64,000 nt of DNA from Lachnoanaerobaculum sp. ICM7. GTDB taxonomy: Bacteria; Bacillota; Clostridia; Lachnospirales; Lachnospiraceae. Both the position numbers and the translations under genes were made by a program. This document shows positions 15,889 through 27,641 of the stretch, piece by piece; the first letter of the stretch is position 1, and the number at the start of each line of letters is the position of its first letter. The stretch is taken from positions 1 to 64,000 of the forward strand of contig NZ_ALJL01000025.1 of the NCBI RefSeq assembly GCF_000287675.1, in the 5' to 3' direction. The notes beneath the pieces are model-generated. The model was not told where the DNA came from and made no database searches. It worked only from the letters and a program-made list of their open reading frames with translations.

Positions 15889-16141
15889 ATTGTAAATTTT
15901 ATGTACATTTTTTATAAAAAAGTCAATAAATATAAGGGTTACAGTACTTACACTAAAATTACACAGGGGTATGTAAGTTATTGGGATGGTACATTATATA
16001 AAAAAGGTTAAAATAAAACTGTATTTTGGGGGCAAATATTGCTACGTTAAACAAATAAATAAAATGTTGGAGGAATGTATATGCTTTAGTAGGAAAAATA
16101 TTAATTTTAAAAAGAATAGAATTTATTATAAGGGGGATAAA

Positions 16142-18706
16142 ATGAATAAACGTATTAATAAAATTATAGCAATCCTATTATCTATAGCAATAGTTTTTGC
16201 TAATCAAACAGTTGCATATGGAGGAATAGAACAACAGGATAATGAAGAGTTTTTGGAAGGATATGAGAATTTAAATATCGATGAAGACTTAGATATATCC
16301 AAATTTGCAACTCCATCTATAGCAAGTTTTAGAATGGCCAGTTTATTAAACACAGGTGTAGGATTTACTAGGAGAACCACAGCTCCTGAATATGGAAATG
16401 TATATTATTATAATGGGGCATATAATCCTTTTGCATATAATCAAGCTCTTATTGGAGAATGTACATGGTATGTTTGGGGAAGGGCTTATGAAATACTTGG
16501 ACAACGGCCTAATATTTCAAGAGGTCAAGCAAAAGATTTTTACACATACAACCTAAATTCAGGAGCATATCCTTATGGAAACGAACCTAAATTGGGAGCT
16601 ATTGCCTGTTTTGCACCAAATAATCATGCATATTGGACAGGACATGTAGCCATAGTAGAAGCTGTAGGTGGAGATGGCTCAGTAATACTTTCAGAGTATA
16701 ATTTTGTATCCGTACATGCATTTTCTGCCAACAGATATCTCAATCCAACAGAGGCAAGAACATGGGTACAAGGATATATTTATTTAAGGCCTGACGATCC
16801 CGTCATACCTGATCATATCCCGGGACCTGTAGGCGGAAGTGATGATGATATAGCAGACGGCGACTATACTATACGTTCGGATGTGGCAGAAGGTAGAAGC
16901 TTAGGTTGGGAAGGTGACGGAAATACAAACGGACAGAATGTATGTTTAAAAGATTATTTTACATATGGTGATTATGTATGGACGCTTGAACGTCAAAGTG
17001 ATGACAGTTTTATCGTAAAAACAAAGCAAGGTGGAAAACTTCTTGATATATTAGGTGGACCATATTCATATGGAAATGAAAAGAATGCGATTATGTGGGA
17101 CTATGTACAGGGAAATGATAATCAAAGATGGTACATAGTAAGAAACGGCAGTGGATATAGATTTATTGCTAAACATTCAGGATATTCATTGGATGTAAGA
17201 AACGGAGATACTACTGACGGCAATAATATATACCAATATTATCCTAATGAATCTACAGCACAAAGATTCTATCTTGAAAAACATGATTTTCCAAATGTAG
17301 AAGAAACAAGTGCAAATGATTTAAAAGATAATGCTACTTACATAATTCGATCAAAACTGGATGTATCAAAAGTAATTACGTCCGAGTCTGATTCAAGTGG
17401 TGCAAACGGTAAAAATATATACCTATATGATTATAATTCGCCTAATTTACCTTCAACACAGATTTGGAAGCTTGAGAAGCAGTCAGACGGAACATTTCTT
17501 ATAAAGAATACATACAATAATAAATATATGGATGTAGTATGGTATTCCTTGAGCAACAGAGCAAATATATACAGCTGGGAAAGGCATTATAATCCAAGTG
17601 AGAGCTGGTATATTGTGAAAAACAATGATACTGAGGGAACATATAGAATTGTAAATAAGAATTCAGGTAAAGTTGTGGATATAACCGGAGGTCAAACAGC
17701 AAACGGTACTAATGTGCAACAATATATTTGGCATGAGCATCCGGCACAAATGTTCTTCTTTGAAAGAGTTCCTGCTACGATAGAATATACAGTTACATTT
17801 AAGACAGATGATAACAATATAATATCAACTCAGATAGTAGAAGAAGGTAATCCTGCATTTGCACCGCAAGCGCCTTATAGAGAAGGGTATGAATTTGTAG
17901 ATTGGGAAGGTGATTACAGCAATATACTCTCAGATACTGTTATAATTGCTAAGTACAATAAATTGCCTGAGAATAATAATGGAACAAATACCGGCAATAA
18001 TAACAATAATGCACCAAATATAGGAAGTTCAAGTAATAATACAGCTAATTCCGGCAATAATGTGGTAAATAATACAGGTACAAATCCAAGTAATAGTGGA
18101 AATAATACAGGTGGTAATCTAAATATCGGAAACGGTAATAATATTGTCGGAACAAATGCAGGTAATACAAATAGTAATACCGGAAATAATATAGGAAATA
18201 CAGCAACCGATACTACAAAGAAAAGTAAAGGTGGTTCATCATCGGGAGGCGGAGGCGGCTCACGTTCCGGTGGTGGAGGTGGCGGTGGATCACGTTCAGG
18301 AGGAAGCAGTGGCTCACGCTCCGGTGGCAGCGCTGCTAAAACTTCTCAAAATTCAACTTCTATACATCAGGGAAGTGTATCATGGCAAAGAGATAACAAA
18401 GGATGGTGGATAAAGAACAGTGACGGCTCATATCCAAGAAATGAGTGGAAGCTTGTTAACAACAGTTGGTATTTCTTTGATTCACAAGGATACATGTTCA
18501 CAGGTTGGTTAAATTCAAATGGAAGTTGGTACTACATGAATACAGACGAAGGTAGTAACAACGGAAAGATGGTCACAGGTTGGAGAGCAGTATCAGGAAA
18601 ATGGTATTATCTAAGCACCGCTACAGACGGTAGTGGAGGAAAAATGCTTCTGAATACAACAATAGACGGCTACAGATTAGGTGCTGACGGGGCATGGGTA
18701 AAATGA
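16142..18706 (+). CDS. Secreted CHAP-domain wall hydrolase with ricin-type lectin and cell-wall-binding repeats
   Basis: This protein has 854 residues. ATG 16142 is chosen because AGGGGG precedes it and a signal peptide follows (KIIAILLSIAIVFANQTVAYG); 52 further in-frame codons upstream are not signal-like. Order: CHAP amidase/endopeptidase domain (~85-220) with catalytic Cys107 in GECTWYVWGRA and His168 in GHVAIVE. Two ricin-B-like beta-trefoil segments follow (~235-375 and ~400-540, repeated NQRWY, GYSLDVRNG and KVVDITGG motifs), then an InlB-type repeat (YTVTF...YEFVDWEG). Next come an Asn/Gly-rich linker, a Gly/Ser/Arg linker and C-terminal W-Y repeats (GWWIKNSDG, SWYFFDSQG, SWYYMNTDE, KWYYLSTA). 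It probably cuts peptidoglycan cross-links or stems at the cell surface while bound to glycans. Confidence 0.88.
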   Translation: MNKRINKIIAILLSIAIVFANQTVAYGGIEQQDNEEFLEGYENLNIDEDLDISKFATPSIASFRMASLLNTGVGFTRRTTAPEYGNVYYYNGAYNPFAYNQALIGECTWYVWGRAYEILGQRPNISRGQAKDFYTYNLNSGAYPYGNEPKLGAIACFAPNNHAYWTGHVAIVEAVGGDGSVILSEYNFVSVHAFSANRYLNPTEARTWVQGYIYLRPDDPVIPDHIPGPVGGSDDDIADGDYTIRSDVAEGRSLGWEGDGNTNGQNVCLKDYFTYGDYVWTLERQSDDSFIVKTKQGGKLLDILGGPYSYGNEKNAIMWDYVQGNDNQRWYIVRNGSGYRFIAKHSGYSLDVRNGDTTDGNNIYQYYPNESTAQRFYLEKHDFPNVEETSANDLKDNATYIIRSKLDVSKVITSESDSSGANGKNIYLYDYNSPNLPSTQIWKLEKQSDGTFLIKNTYNNKYMDVVWYSLSNRANIYSWERHYNPSESWYIVKNNDTEGTYRIVNKNSGKVVDITGGQTANGTNVQQYIWHEHPAQMFFFERVPATIEYTVTFKTDDNNIISTQIVEEGNPAFAPQAPYREGYEFVDWEGDYSNILSDTVIIAKYNKLPENNNGTNTGNNNNNAPNIGSSSNNTANSGNNVVNNTGTNPSNSGNNTGGNLNIGNGNNIVGTNAGNTNSNTGNNIGNTATDTTKKSKGGSSSGGGGGSRSGGGGGGGSRSGGSSGSRSGGSAAKTSQNSTSIHQGSVSWQRDNKGWWIKNSDGSYPRNEWKLVNNSWYFFDSQGYMFTGWLNSNGSWYYMNTDEGSNNGKMVTGWRAVSGKWYYLSTATDGSGGKMLLNTTIDGYRLGADGAWVK

Positions 18707-22400: not shown

Positions 22401-22435
22401 AACAAAACAATTTAAAAACGAAAAGAGGTATGGCA

Positions 22436-24229
22436 ATGAATAAAACAAATGAAATACGTAAAGAATTTTTATGTTCAACATCAATAGTATATACAGGTGA
22501 ATTTAACGGTGAGGTGTATGGTGTCAGTGACAGATTTATGACCTATGGAATGTATTTAAAAGATGGTGAGACTTTGGGATTTGAAATTGTAATGAATCAG
22601 GGTGAGCCTTATAAAAACTATATATACTTGGATTCGGATAATGAGGTTTCTACAGATGAGTTTGACTGGATTTTCAACAATTATGCAAAGGTGATTCCGG
22701 ATAAGTATATTTTGGAAGATAAAACACCAGAAAATGACAGAATAAAGTATAGAGCGGTTGCCTGTGAGAGTTTGAATATTAATTTTATAGATGATGACAT
22801 AATATATATGATTCCTAATTCCGGATATTTTAAGGCAATGTGTAAGGAGATAAGCGAGGTTGGAGGACATATCAGTGTGATTATTAAAGCTGGAGGAAAT
22901 AAAGACGGTAATGTTGGAAGTATTGTTTTTGATTTTCCGCAAAGAATATCCAAAAAGCTTAAATCACTTATAAGTATGGTCTTTAAGGGTTGTGTTTTGG
23001 AAGAGGTAGGCGATGAAGTAAGTGATAATAATATAAGTAAAAAGAATTTAAGAGATTATATTATTATTCTTTTGAAAATACTTGGTATGCAGCAAAAGGT
23101 GGATAAGGACTCCATTGACAATCTGGAACTTGGGGTTCGCTCCTACAATGCATTAAAAAAAGCGAATATTACTTCTATAAAAAGGCTTCTTGAGATGTCC
23201 GATATGGAACTTCTTAAGATTAGAAATCTCGGCAGGAAATGTATTTCAGAGATTAGAACACAGCTTATTGAAAAAAATTATGTGAGTTCTTATGAGGATC
23301 AATTTTTTGAAAATATGGACTCTATCGTATTGCCGGAAATGCCTAAAGATATTTTTGAAGATATAGCGGATAAGCGTAACTATATGGATGAACTACAGGC
23401 TTTGGTAGGTATAAGGGCTGTAAAGGATCAGGTGAAAAAGATTTTGGCATTTGCAAAGATGAGAAAGGCTATGGAAGAAAATGGGAAACATTTAGAACCT
23501 ATAACTTTGAATATGGAGTTTGTAGGAAATCCGGGGACTGCCAAAACCACTGTAGCAAGGATTGTTGCAGGATTACTGAAAGAAATAGGTATTATAACAA
23601 CAGGAGAGTTTATAGAGGTAGGAAGAGCCGATCTTGTAGCAAAGTATGTGGGACAAACAGCTCCCATGATACAAAATGTATTTCAAAGGGCAAAGGGCGG
23701 TGTGCTCTTTATAGATGAGGCGTATTCACTTTTGGAAGAAGTAAGGGGAGGATTCGGTGATGAAGCTATAAATATGATTGTTCAGGAGATGGAAAACAAC
23801 AGAAAGGATACTATAGTAATATTTGCCGGTTATCCTGATGAGATGGATGAGTTCTTCTTGCGAAATCAGGGGCTTAGATCAAGAGTACCTTTTAGAGTAA
23901 ATTTTGAAGACTATAATGTTGAGGAGATGTTAGATATATGTAAACTGGAAGCCTTTAAGAAGGGATTTTTGACAGATGACATGGCTGATAAAAAGATTAT
24001 GGAAATATGTGAGAAATCTATTGAAAATAAAAATAATGGAAACGGAAGATTTTGCAGAAATCTGATAGAAATGGGAGTACTCAATTTTGCATTCAGAAAC
24101 TATGGAGATTTGGATGTAAATGAAAAAATAGAGTATATTTTAAGAAAAGAAGATTTCATAGATATGAATGATTTGGATTTAAAATCTGATGAGAACAACT
24201 CAAGAATAGGTTTTAAGATATCTGCTTAA
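22436..24229 (+). CDS. CbxX/SpoVK-type AAA+ ATPase with an RNA polymerase alpha-CTD-like domain
   Basis: The 597-residue protein has an unrecognised ~190-residue N-terminal region. Residues ~225-284 are very close to the alpha-subunit C-terminal domain of RNA polymerase (LELGVRSYNALKKANI, LLKIRNLGRKCISEI), keeping the Arg and Asn used for DNA contact. The C-terminal half is an AAA+ domain of the CbxX/CfxQ/SpoVK group: Walker A GNPGTAKTT (~363), KYVGQTAP pore loop, Walker B VLFIDEAYS (~424), and LRSRVPFRV arginine-finger region. ATG 22436 has AGAGG at 7-base spacing; ATG 22430 is too close. Monocistronic, behind a long structured leader. Remodelling of a DNA- or RNA-polymerase-bound partner is inference. 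Confidence 0.82.
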   Translation: MNKTNEIRKEFLCSTSIVYTGEFNGEVYGVSDRFMTYGMYLKDGETLGFEIVMNQGEPYKNYIYLDSDNEVSTDEFDWIFNNYAKVIPDKYILEDKTPENDRIKYRAVACESLNINFIDDDIIYMIPNSGYFKAMCKEISEVGGHISVIIKAGGNKDGNVGSIVFDFPQRISKKLKSLISMVFKGCVLEEVGDEVSDNNISKKNLRDYIIILLKILGMQQKVDKDSIDNLELGVRSYNALKKANITSIKRLLEMSDMELLKIRNLGRKCISEIRTQLIEKNYVSSYEDQFFENMDSIVLPEMPKDIFEDIADKRNYMDELQALVGIRAVKDQVKKILAFAKMRKAMEENGKHLEPITLNMEFVGNPGTAKTTVARIVAGLLKEIGIITTGEFIEVGRADLVAKYVGQTAPMIQNVFQRAKGGVLFIDEAYSLLEEVRGGFGDEAINMIVQEMENNRKDTIVIFAGYPDEMDEFFLRNQGLRSRVPFRVNFEDYNVEEMLDICKLEAFKKGFLTDDMADKKIMEICEKSIENKNNGNGRFCRNLIEMGVLNFAFRNYGDLDVNEKIEYILRKEDFIDMNDLDLKSDENNSRIGFKISA

Positions 24230-24343: not shown

Positions 24344-24394
24344 AGTATACAGTGTGTTACATTAAAATTTATAATAAGTAATTTGGAGGAGAAT

Positions 24395-25405
24395 ATGTTT
24401 TGGTTTACATCCAATGACATTGGTATAGATCTTGGAACAGCAAGTATCTTAGTTTATATAAAGGGCAAGGGTGTTGTTTTAAAAGAGCCAAGTGTTGTAG
24501 CTATAGATAGAGAAAACGGTAAGATACAGGCCATAGGTGAGGAAGCCAGACTTATGATCGGAAGAACACCGGGAAATATTGTGGCAGTAAGACCGCTTCG
24601 TCAGGGTGTTATTTCAGATTATACAATAACAGAAAAGATGTTAAAGTACTTTATCGACAAGGCTGTAGGAAAGAAGACTTTCAGAAAGCCGAGAATTGCA
24701 GTATGTATCCCGTCAGGTGCTACTGAGGTCGAGAAGAAGGCTGTAGAGGATGCAACATATTCTGCAGGTGCAAGAGAAGTTAAGATTATTGAAGAGCCTG
24801 TAGCGGCTGCTATAGGTGCAGGAATTGATATTGAAAAGGCTGTAGGAAACATGATAGTTGATATCGGTGGTGGTACAGCTGATATAGCTGTTATCTCTCT
24901 TGGAGGTACTGTTGTAAGTACATCAATTAAGATTGCAGGTGACGATTTCGATGAGTCTATTGTTAGATATATGAGAAAGAAGCACAATCTTTTAATCGGT
25001 GAGAGAACAGCAGAGGAAATTAAGATTAATATCGGTGCAGCATACAGAAGACCTGAGGTTCTTACTATGGAAGTTAAGGGTAGAAACCTTGTAACAGGAC
25101 TTCCAAAGACTATAGAGGTTAACTCTGATGAGACTTTAGAGGCACTTAGAGAGCCGGCAATGCAGATCGTAGACTCAGTTCACAATGTTTTGGAGAGAAC
25201 ACCACCTGAGCTTGCAGCCGATGTATATGACAGAGGTATTGTACTTACCGGTGGTGGTGCATTACTTTCAGGTCTTGACGCTCTTATTGAGGAAAAGACA
25301 GGTATCAACACAGTAATAGCTGACAATCCTTTGACAGCGGTTGCTATCGGTACAGGTAAGTTTATTGAGTTCAGATCCGGTAATAAGGGAGATTCTAAAA
25401 AATAA
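24395..25405 (+). CDS. mreB: Rod-shape determining actin homologue MreB
   Basis: MreB, 336 residues, forms membrane-associated filaments that guide lateral wall synthesis. The actin-fold phosphate loops are visible: DIGIDLGTASILVY at the start, DIGGGTADIAVISLGG, and GIVLTGGGALLSGLD. PSVVAID and IPSGATEVEKKAV are also typical. ATG 24395 is preceded by GGAGGA at 4-base spacing. There is no mreC or mreD beside it; recD2 follows 1 base after the stop. It may be an Mbl-type paralogue, which sequence alone cannot exclude. Confidence 0.93.
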   Translation: MFWFTSNDIGIDLGTASILVYIKGKGVVLKEPSVVAIDRENGKIQAIGEEARLMIGRTPGNIVAVRPLRQGVISDYTITEKMLKYFIDKAVGKKTFRKPRIAVCIPSGATEVEKKAVEDATYSAGAREVKIIEEPVAAAIGAGIDIEKAVGNMIVDIGGGTADIAVISLGGTVVSTSIKIAGDDFDESIVRYMRKKHNLLIGERTAEEIKINIGAAYRRPEVLTMEVKGRNLVTGLPKTIEVNSDETLEALREPAMQIVDSVHNVLERTPPELAADVYDRGIVLTGGGALLSGLDALIEEKTGINTVIADNPLTAVAIGTGKFIEFRSGNKGDSKK

Positions 25406-25406
25406 T

Positions 25407-27641
25407 ATGTCAACAGTATCAGGCTATATCGAAAAAATCATTTATAGGAATGAAACTAATGGCTATACTGTGCTCAGCGTGGAGGCCGATGATGACGATT
25501 ATGTCCTTGTCGGTACCTTCAACTATATCGCTGAAGGTGAATTTATAAAGGCAAATGGAAATATGAAGCTGCATCCAAACTATGGAGAGCAGCTTTTTGT
25601 CGATGAATACGAAATCATAGAGCCGAGAGAACTTGACAGTATACAAAAGTATCTGGAATCTTCCGCAATAAAGGGTGTGGGCGAGGCACTGGCAAAAAGA
25701 ATAGTTAAAAAGTTTAAGATGGACACTCTTAGGGTGATGGAAGAAGAACCTGAAAGGCTGGCAGAGGTAAAAGGTGTAAGTGAAAAGCTTGCAAGATCCA
25801 TAAGCGAACAGATACAGGAAAAGAAGTCCATGCGTGATGCTATGATTTTTTTACAAAAGTTTGGAATCAGCATGAAGCTTTCCGCAAAGATATATATGGA
25901 ATACGGAAGTAAAATATATACTATAATAGAGACAAATCCATATAAACTTGCAGATGATATAGACGGTATAGGTTTTAAGATTGCAGACGATATTGCCAAA
26001 AAGGTAGGTATTACAGCTGATTCCAAGTTTCGTGCCATTGCAGGAGTGGAGTATATTTTATCAAATGCCATGATGTCCGGACATCTATATCTGCCTGATA
26101 CAGTTTTAAATGCTGAATTCCTTGATTTATTCGGTGAAAATATATTTGACTTTGATTCTTTACTTTCAGAAATGCAGATGGAAAAAAGAATCGTTGTGAA
26201 GAAAAATGAAGAAACTCAAGTTTATCTTTCACAGTGCTATTATACTGAACTGGCGGTAGCAAAAATGCTGACAGATATCAATATAAAAGCAAAGTATGAT
26301 ATAGAAAAGATAGAAGAGAAAATTCTAAAGATTGAGGATAAAGAAGGTATTGTCCTGGATGACTTGCAAAGGCAGGCGGTAATAGAATCCATAAGCAGCG
26401 GTCTTATAATAATCACCGGAGGACCGGGAACCGGAAAGACTACGACTATAAATACTATTATCAAATACTTTGAAAGCGAAGGCGAAAGTATTGCGCTCGC
26501 AGCTCCTACGGGAAGAGCGGCAAAGAGGATGTCGGAAGCTACATCATATGAAGCGAAAACCATTCACAGACTTCTGGAAATAACACCTAATAACAGTGAT
26601 AATTCAAGCAATATAGGTACTCATTTTGAGAGAAATGAAGACAATCCGCTTGAGTCAGATGTACTTATAGTGGATGAGGTCAGTATGGTGGATATTTTTC
26701 TTATGCATGCACTTTTAAAGGCTGTAGCAATAGGAACAAGACTGATTTTAGTAGGAGACATAAATCAGCTTCCAAGTGTAGGTCCGGGAACAGTGTTAAA
26801 AGATATGATCGACTCAAATTGCTTTAATGTTGTAAGGCTTAATAAGATATTCCGCCAGTCCACAGGAAGTGATATTGTTGTAAATGCTCATAATATAATG
26901 ACAAATGAAGAGATTGATCTGGGTAAGAAGAGTAATGATTTTATTTTTATCAAACAGAGTAATCCCGAGCATGTAATGGATTCGGTTATTTCTCTTGTAA
27001 AGGATAAACTTCCTTCATATGTAAAAGCATCTACAAATGAACTTCAGGTCATGACACCTATGAGAAAGGGACCTCTCGGAGTGGAACTTTTAAACTCATT
27101 TTTACAAAATAAACTAAATCCTGCAAGTAACTCCAAAAAAGAAAAAGAATATGATGCCACAGTCTTTAGAGAAGGCGATAAGGTAATGCAGATAAAAAAC
27201 AATTACCAAAAAGAGTGGTTCGTATACAATGAAAAACATATGCCGGTGGATAAGGGGCTTGGAGTTTACAATGGTGATACCGGAATAATTAAAGAAATAG
27301 ATATGTTTTCAGAAAGCTTCACTGTTTGTTTTGATGACGGTAAGGTTTCAAATTATGAGTTTTCGGAGTTTAACGAAATTGAACTTGCATATGCCATTAC
27401 TGTTCATAAATCACAGGGAAGCGAGTATCCAGCTGTAATTATTCCCATTTATAAGGGACCTGCAATGCTTATGAACAGAAATCTTATATATACGGCTGTT
27501 ACAAGAGCAAAAAAATGTGTTGTACTTGTAGGTATTCCCGAAGTGTTTTACAGTATGATTCAAAACACTAAGGAGATGGCAAGATATACCGGTTTAAAAT
27601 CCAAAATAATTGAGCTTTCCATGTTATCTAAGGAGGATTAG
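25407..27641 (+). CDS. recD2: RecD2-type ATP-dependent DNA helicase
   Basis: This 744-residue RecD-like helicase is of the RecBC-independent type. The N-terminal region has helix-hairpin-helix-like repeats (IKGVGEALAKRIV, VKGVSEKLARSI, IDGIGFKIADDIA). The helicase core shows Walker A GGPGTGKTTT, Walker B VDEVSMVD, GDINQLPSVGPG, and C-terminal motifs ELAYAITVHKSQGSEYP and YTAVTRAKK. It unwinds 5'-3' and helps in DNA repair. ATG 25407 is chosen from the MSTVSGYIEKI start typical of the family; a longer frame from 25341 overlaps mreB. Its last codons contain the Shine-Dalgarno of comFC. Confidence 0.93.
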   Translation: MSTVSGYIEKIIYRNETNGYTVLSVEADDDDYVLVGTFNYIAEGEFIKANGNMKLHPNYGEQLFVDEYEIIEPRELDSIQKYLESSAIKGVGEALAKRIVKKFKMDTLRVMEEEPERLAEVKGVSEKLARSISEQIQEKKSMRDAMIFLQKFGISMKLSAKIYMEYGSKIYTIIETNPYKLADDIDGIGFKIADDIAKKVGITADSKFRAIAGVEYILSNAMMSGHLYLPDTVLNAEFLDLFGENIFDFDSLLSEMQMEKRIVVKKNEETQVYLSQCYYTELAVAKMLTDINIKAKYDIEKIEEKILKIEDKEGIVLDDLQRQAVIESISSGLIIITGGPGTGKTTTINTIIKYFESEGESIALAAPTGRAAKRMSEATSYEAKTIHRLLEITPNNSDNSSNIGTHFERNEDNPLESDVLIVDEVSMVDIFLMHALLKAVAIGTRLILVGDINQLPSVGPGTVLKDMIDSNCFNVVRLNKIFRQSTGSDIVVNAHNIMTNEEIDLGKKSNDFIFIKQSNPEHVMDSVISLVKDKLPSYVKASTNELQVMTPMRKGPLGVELLNSFLQNKLNPASNSKKEKEYDATVFREGDKVMQIKNNYQKEWFVYNEKHMPVDKGLGVYNGDTGIIKEIDMFSESFTVCFDDGKVSNYEFSEFNEIELAYAITVHKSQGSEYPAVIIPIYKGPAMLMNRNLIYTAVTRAKKCVVLVGIPEVFYSMIQNTKEMARYTGLKSKIIELSMLSKED

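Follow-up and report, generated by a model that had tools for sequence, protein, structure and literature searches.

Gene and domain organization

The ORF found at positions 22436–24229 (+) of the window, the whole 64,000-nucleotide stretch of Lachnoanaerobaculum DNA analyzed here, lies where the original prediction had placed it and codes for a protein of 597 residues. A second in-frame ATG, 6 bases upstream at 22430, provides an alternative start. The ORF, Pfam and the curated family models define a three-domain protein composed of an amino terminus domain (NTD), an RNA polymerase alpha-CTD and a CbbX/SpoVK-type AAA+ motor. The NTD (residues 11–191; 22466–23008 (+)) is predicted in AF2 models to consist of two beta-alpha-beta-beta-alpha-beta units (about residues 11–89 and 103–191). 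It was absent from the earlier description of the gene and is a conserved part of the fusion protein family. The alpha-CTD (PF03118, residues 220–279; 23093–23272 (+)), delimited by Pfam, PDB matches and alignment, is followed by a linker (residues 280–315; 23273–23380 (+)) that is variable in the alignment and of low confidence in the AF2 model. The AAA+ domain and its lid (residues 316–580; 23381–24175 (+)) are assigned to the SpoVK/CbbX/EccA clade by Pfam, curated models, PDB matches and fold match.

The AF2 full-length model, built from 14 sequences, has a mean pLDDT of 74.8 and a pTM of 0.45 that leaves the mutual orientation of the domains not fixed. The strands and helices of the two amino terminus units span residues 14 to 190. 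The structure prediction proposed as a check of the alpha-CTD and motor assignments yields a bundle of short helices at residues 227–279 (ten-residue blocks of pLDDT 82–86 at 231–280; 62 at 221–230) and an AAA+ fold on the carboxyl side of the linker, whose residues 286–313 have a pLDDT below 50. The alpha-CTD stands as proposed; its span, originally drawn at residues 225–284, moves to about 220–279.

Identity of the alpha-CTD and its DNA-contact residues

Residues 220–277 match the Pfam model PF03118 (RNA_pol_A_CTD) with an E-value of 1e-18 (67.2 bits versus a gathering cut-off of 23.8). Searched against PDB sequences, residues 193–305 match the alpha-CTDs of RpoA best (3ihq, E 1e-11; 6wvj, 1.5e-11; 1z3e, 3.5e-11). 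All 14 aligned members of the family that were scanned with Pfam carry PF03118 (E 0.001 or better) together with AAA and AAA_lid_6. These results rule out a chance or misread motif and confirm that the window protein carries a genuine alpha-CTD fused to a CbbX/SpoVK-type motor. Only two places in the host genome exceed the PF03118 cut-off, namely this gene and rpoA. The latter, when compared as the original prediction had proposed, is a distinct gene located elsewhere (G000:C22:202983-203177, PF03118 E 8.9e-29). That the fusion gene is itself rpoA was likewise ruled out, its product scoring 54.3 bits versus 227.8 for TIGR02027 over residues 219–280 only, with the rest of RpoA unmatched.

Residues R235, N238, K261, N264, G266 and K268 of the window protein occupy the positions of E. 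coli R265, N268, K291, N294, G296 and K298 (E. coli numbering is used below for the alpha-CTD unless stated otherwise). Passages of PMC7822876 and PMC11434276 name R265, N268, K291, N294 and K298 as alpha-CTD residues contacting DNA, and all five are kept in the window protein. The earlier claim that the Arg, Asn and Gly-Arg-Lys contact positions are preserved is borne out by R235, N238, N264, G266 and K268. The domain differs from the RpoA alpha-CTD in having a Cys at the S299 position and an Asn at that of E. coli D259.

The AAA+ motor

The Walker A motif GNPGTAKT (23525–23548 (+)), in which Ala replaces the last Gly, the motif YVGQTA (residues 404–409; 23645–23662 (+)), which we take to be the pore loop by homology to CbbX, and the Walker B motif VLFIDEAY (residues 423–430; 23702–23725 (+)) were located by sequence and family alignment. 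The AAA+ motifs are present in the 23 members of the fusion family, whose Walker A position holds Ala in 21 and Cys in two according to the alignment. The Ala variant was also seen by eye in several related motors lacking an alpha-CTD. From these motifs the motor is predicted to hydrolyze ATP. The CbxX/SpoVK type of the motor, its Walker B and its pore loop agree with the original prediction, while the Walker A motif, described there as intact, is not fully canonical.

Pfam AAA matches residues 362–479 and AAA_lid_6 falls marginally below its cut-off in the window protein (23.6 versus 24.3). The AAA+ half matches the SpoVK and CbbX models with E-values of 1.8e-70 and 3.7e-58, both under the family cut-offs. 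The window protein is below all three equivalog cut-offs of the clade: SpoVK (TIGR02881, 236.9 bits versus 422.95), CbbX (TIGR02880, 197 versus 459.25) and EccA (TIGR03922, 177.5 versus 466.65). CbbX is nevertheless the best PDB match of the AAA+ part by sequence and by fold (Foldseek E 3.3e-18; VIA 3zuh, Z 24.2, 270 residues aligned, rmsd 4.2). The VIA listing for the full-length model is taken up by AAA+ chains and is uninformative on the other domains.

The three signatures that passages of PMC10659427 give for the SpoVK/CbbX/EccA clade, a GY in the sensor-1 region, an Asn four positions before the first Arg finger and the sensor-2 Arg, are all present. The window protein has the first as AGY, like 22/23 members; the remaining one has AGF. 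The second is N477-x-G-L-R481, its Asn being found in 23/23 members; the R481 position, named as the Arg finger by alignment with CbbX, is Arg in 18/23 and Lys in 5/23. The third lies in GNGRFCRN, the motif of the second Arg finger, which presumably holds sensor-2 and has both Arg residues kept in 23/23.

The same passages describe the clade as narrow, dedicated chaperones with diverse amino terminus domains that might recruit substrates, and report that no peptidase associations were found for them (PMC10659427). Characterized members each serve a narrow target: Rubisco for CbbX, MurG for SpoVK and type VII secretion for EccA (PMC10659427). The amino terminus regions exemplified in those passages are TPR, beta-helix, beta-prism and SF1 helicase domains (PMC10659427), and the word “polymerase” does not occur in the main text of that paper, figures aside. 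The window protein is distinguished by an amino terminus part made of the alpha/beta pair and the alpha-CTD.

The amino terminus domain

Modeled alone by AF2, the NTD has a pLDDT of 72.8 and a pTM of 0.75. Its sequence has no noteworthy match in Pfam or the PDB, and its model no Foldseek match below E 0.001. The first VIA match is TrwK/VirB4 (Z 10.3, 188 residues aligned, rmsd 3.8, 6% identity), followed by the ESX-3 chain 6umm_A (Z 8.0, 161 aligned, rmsd 4.4, 9% identity); the typical best VIA Z being 7 to 8, the former is somewhat above it and the latter at it. The modeled domain bears a distant fold resemblance to the amino terminus part of TrwK/VirB4 and to 6umm_A, but it has no meaningful sequence identity with either, and we read the likeness as a shared arrangement that says nothing on function. 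At E 1e-4, a profile of the NTD matches five of the 200 genomes scanned, each time in a fusion protein. Among the genomes searched, the domain is confined to the alpha-CTD/AAA+ fusion family.

Distribution and ancestry of the fusion family

At least 23 fusion proteins that differ in their AAA+ sequence make up the family: genome searches gave 11 and a scan of Clostridia contigs 12; two of them (L102 and L104) are nearly identical. Within the genus, the full protein is found in four of six genomes, a shortened form in one (G203, loci L038/L039) and no match in another (G202). The G203 version has 392 residues, its first amino terminus unit joining the AAA+ part directly in an open frame. The second unit and the alpha-CTD are missing through an in-frame shortening that might be an assembly error.

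Genomes were drawn from the bacterial family, the order and the class of the host, at most three candidates being scored per genome (at most six in another large genome search). In the family draw, 24 of 397 genomes match at E 1e-80 or better: six matches span the model, one is the shortened G203 form and 17 begin at model position 287 or later, that is, at the AAA+ end. The order draw gives matches in 17/344 genomes, full length only in the two genus members, and the class draw in 19/341, full length in four (G000, G1012, G976, G1010). Among the best 80 loci of the contig scan, an alpha-CTD was found in 13 of the 23 examined (L098 being a contig of genome G068), and an ORF scan of all 80 added none. 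The carriers among these 80 loci belong to Lachnospiraceae, Mogibacterium, Saccharofermentans, Eubacterium, bacterium 1XD21-70 and unclassified Clostridia/Clostridiales MAGs.

A quickly built tree of 85 AAA+ domains, in which the AAA+ domains of other proteins were represented by a random 60 of 112, groups the 23 fusion proteins with the G203 deletion form in one clade (SH-aLRT 98). The presence of the alpha-CTD requires two changes of state on this tree, which we interpret as a single gain and a single loss, the tree itself giving no direction. A fusion of an alpha-CTD to a CbbX/SpoVK-type motor was not found described in the open-access titles and abstract openings listed by the literature searches. 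We regard the protein as having an architecture that is conserved and, as far as this literature goes, new within a known chaperone clade.

Conservation of the alpha-CTD across the family

Residues were compared in 21 fusion alpha-CTDs (the near-duplicates L035, L098 and L104 being left out), 30 RpoA and 13 other alpha-CTD-like domains. R265 is invariant in the fusion proteins (21/21), followed by E302 (20/21), N268 (19/21), N294 (17/21) and G296 (16/21). Position 298 is Lys in 15/21 and Arg in four more, position 291 Lys in 7/21 and Arg in six more, and S299 is kept in 9/21. At least one of the loop-2 residues N294, G296 or basic 298 is lost in eight of the 21 (L040, L097, L099, L100, L101, L103, L106 and L107), and the two members missing N268 are outside these eight. 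R265, N268 and G296 are also kept in the 13 alpha-CTD-like domains of other proteins, so that they characterize the module at large. R265 was reported to be surface-exposed in passages of PMC3828302 and, with N268, to be critical for alpha-CTD DNA binding in passages of PMC11434276, which makes its invariance in the family hard to ascribe to the fold core alone.

The RpoA residue is retained at a rate of 0.80 over seven contact positions, a list that includes some beyond those named in the papers, versus 0.43 at 23 other polar positions conserved in RpoA (permutation p ~0.0015; p 0.0045 when limited to positions within the fold). For the five positions named in the papers (265, 268, 291, 294 and 298), retention is 0.75 versus 0.47 over 30 positions (p 0.026) and 0.75 versus 0.54 over the 26 positions within the fold (p 0.054). 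For the four contact positions named in passages of PMC7822876, p is 0.085, and 0.15 within the fold. The excess, clear for the list of seven and borderline for that of five, depends on the list and is suggestive. A shift in net charge was dropped as a distinguishing trait of the fusion alpha-CTDs, the difference from RpoA being not significant (means 1.10 and 0.67, p 0.09).

The alpha-CTD is under purifying selection within the genus. Its dN/dS ranges from 0.05 to 0.18, versus 0.16–0.20 for the AAA+ domain and 0.13–0.43 for the amino terminus units, as compared among four genus members in six non-independent pairs. It is below that of the motor in five of these pairs, one giving the reverse (0.182 versus 0.167). 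Purifying selection, the invariant R265 and the retention of the alpha-CTD in 23 fusions of one clade argue against the domain being a structural spacer or relic in a chaperone whose client has nothing to do with DNA, as is the case with SpoVK (MurG) and CbbX (Rubisco). The loop-2 losses in 8/21 members, the G203 deletion and the non-DNA clients of the characterized clade members (passages of PMC10659427) speak for that explanation, which we hold to be distinctly improbable.

The same residue comparison bears on a different role for the domain, that of a protein bait mimicking RpoA and catching Spx- or ComA-type factors or sigma region 4 for the motor, with DNA binding secondary. In B. subtilis, Y263 of the alpha-CTD is the Spx contact and K267 is needed by ComA (passages of PMC2801614). 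Position 267, equated here with B. subtilis Y263, is Tyr in 17/21 and Phe in 4/21 fusion proteins, and the K271 equivalent (B. subtilis K267) is Lys in 18/21. Both residues are, however, also conserved in RpoA (0.93 and 1.00 of 30), and their presence is expected from descent. Matches to the ArsC family, which includes Spx, are found in 11 of 13 genomes (the 11 carriers plus G202 and G203), two of them in the host, their identity as Spx being putative, but the fusion carriers G976 and G1010 have none. A bait of this kind appears unlikely.

Borrowed alpha-CTDs and genomic context

The borrowing of alpha-CTDs is recurrent in the bacterial family of the host: among 120 of its genomes, PF03118 is also found in open frames of ~90–270 and ~880–1450 residues. 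Two proteins of ~900 residues have two alpha-CTDs at their amino terminus, one (L222, 3001–5733 (+)) with a sigma-70 region 4 (Pfam 4.5e-8) and the other (L221, 2584–5307 in reverse-strand numbering) with a sigma-4-like stretch seen by eye. Small stand-alone proteins (~80–170 residues) with an alpha-CTD-like domain occur in several genomes of the family (L226–L231, L233, L234). The BREX kinase PglW is, according to passages of PMC12839542, a further non-RpoA protein combining an alpha-CTD-like domain with an enzymatic one. It differs in having a kinase where the fusion protein has an AAA+ motor, and in belonging to a defence system. The alpha-CTD is thus a portable module in Clostridia.

This reuse, in small proteins, in one with sigma-70 region 4 and in PglW (PMC12839542, in part), is what would be expected if the domain were a generic helix-hairpin-helix binding DNA non-specifically, the motor acting in repair, replication, nucleoid organization or defence. 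PADLOC matches of the fusion protein to IetA (E 5.6e-9) and TRIP13 (5.7e-5) point in the same direction, but they are confined to the AAA part, as the PglW match is to the alpha-CTD. A further point against it is that, in a comparison of 24 loci, some of them with short flanks, no neighbor recurs widely beyond the genus. Plasmid and phage records offer no support either. With tblastn at E 1e-5, matches occur in 272 plasmid records out of 72,556 and in 20 phage records out of 50,697, and none covers 80% of the query at one place; the matches listed, 15 of each kind, lie in the AAA part, except for four from phages that are limited to the alpha-CTD. On the same result, the gene being cargo of a mobile element or defence system was rejected. 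We judge a generic, non-specific module quite unlikely.

The survey of gene neighborhoods suggested with the original prediction gave no transcription gene widely linked to the fusion gene in these 24 loci, and the gene behaves as a stand-alone one. Clustering of the flanking genes shows a two-component pair at three loci (L107, L180, L184), each with a regulator that Pfam assigns to the OmpR type. A transporter-like cluster occurs at six loci, three of them outside the genus; its one scanned member proved to be an ABC transporter. Three loci have a MatE-type cluster (one member scanned). We take all of these for common gene kinds. A scan for promoters around the gene was uninformative (13 found versus 12.9 expected). 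In the window, a gene of MreB/Mbl type (24383–25405 (+); PF06723, E 2.4e-143) lies directly downstream, followed by one coding a RecD2-like helicase as judged by eye (25341–27641 (+)); in the loci compared, this gene order is confined to the genus. Upstream, positions 15986–18706 (+) code for a protein of 906 residues with matches to CHAP, a ricin-type beta-trefoil and choline-binding repeats, likely a secreted cell wall protein.

SpoVK is reported only in sporulating Firmicutes (passages of PMC10659427). Spo0A_C, a proxy for sporulation, has a match in 3 of the 13 genomes above (two over the cut-off), but in no genome of the six from the genus. WXG100, a proxy for type VII secretion, has a match in 7 of the 13 and none in the host. 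On these proxies, which are not uniform across the carriers, neither sporulation nor type VII secretion readily accounts for the fusion protein.

Proposed function

The earlier interpretation was that of a transcription-linked remodeler tethered to promoter DNA or to sigma factors and activators. Its structural part holds: an alpha-CTD joined to a CbbX/SpoVK motor, in a conserved and selected family of one AAA+ clade whose contact residues and ATPase motifs are kept in the window protein. Given the loop-2 losses, the lack of a widely linked transcription gene and the presence of alpha-CTDs in other non-RpoA proteins, the binding of DNA, promoters, sigma or activators and the role of a transcription remodeler are putative, the latter being a reasonable inference.

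The reading that we prefer, and whose probability we put at about even, is that of a dedicated, non-proteolytic AAA+ chaperone in which the alpha-CTD would tether the ring to AT-rich, promoter-type DNA and the client would be on that DNA. The recruiting region, new for the clade, would comprise this alpha-CTD, gripping the minor grooves of such DNA, and the NTD. From homology to the clade, the motor would be hexameric and would draw a segment of the client through its pore, lined by the aromatic loop YVGQTA; with as many as six flexibly linked alpha-CTDs, the ring could bind DNA with avidity. The two-unit alpha/beta NTD presumably recognizes the client, or the alpha-CTD may bring it. The motor would thus be carried to a DNA-bound protein and would remodel or remove it; the likeliest client is RNA polymerase itself or a regulator of transcription. 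Hexamer, DNA binding, location at promoters, client and direction of the effect are what we infer for the fusion protein; promoter DNA as the site and a transcription protein as the client are suggested by analogy with the alpha-CTD in RpoA.

A more specific form of this reading has a promoter-dedicated hexameric ring whose up to six alpha-CTDs would sit on UP-element-like DNA, compete with or join RNA polymerase there and reset transcription by pulling on the polymerase itself or a regulator. We consider it doubtful, if conceivable. The open AAA+ frame of G203 lacking an alpha-CTD indicates that the tether may be dispensable in that strain, and the shortened gene provides a natural test of the need for it.

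The tether could be severed by one well-understood substitution at the position equivalent to R265, so that the idea lends itself to a direct test. If true, the presence of the polymerase's domain for upstream DNA on a motor would extend the SpoVK/CbbX/EccA clade to DNA or transcription.
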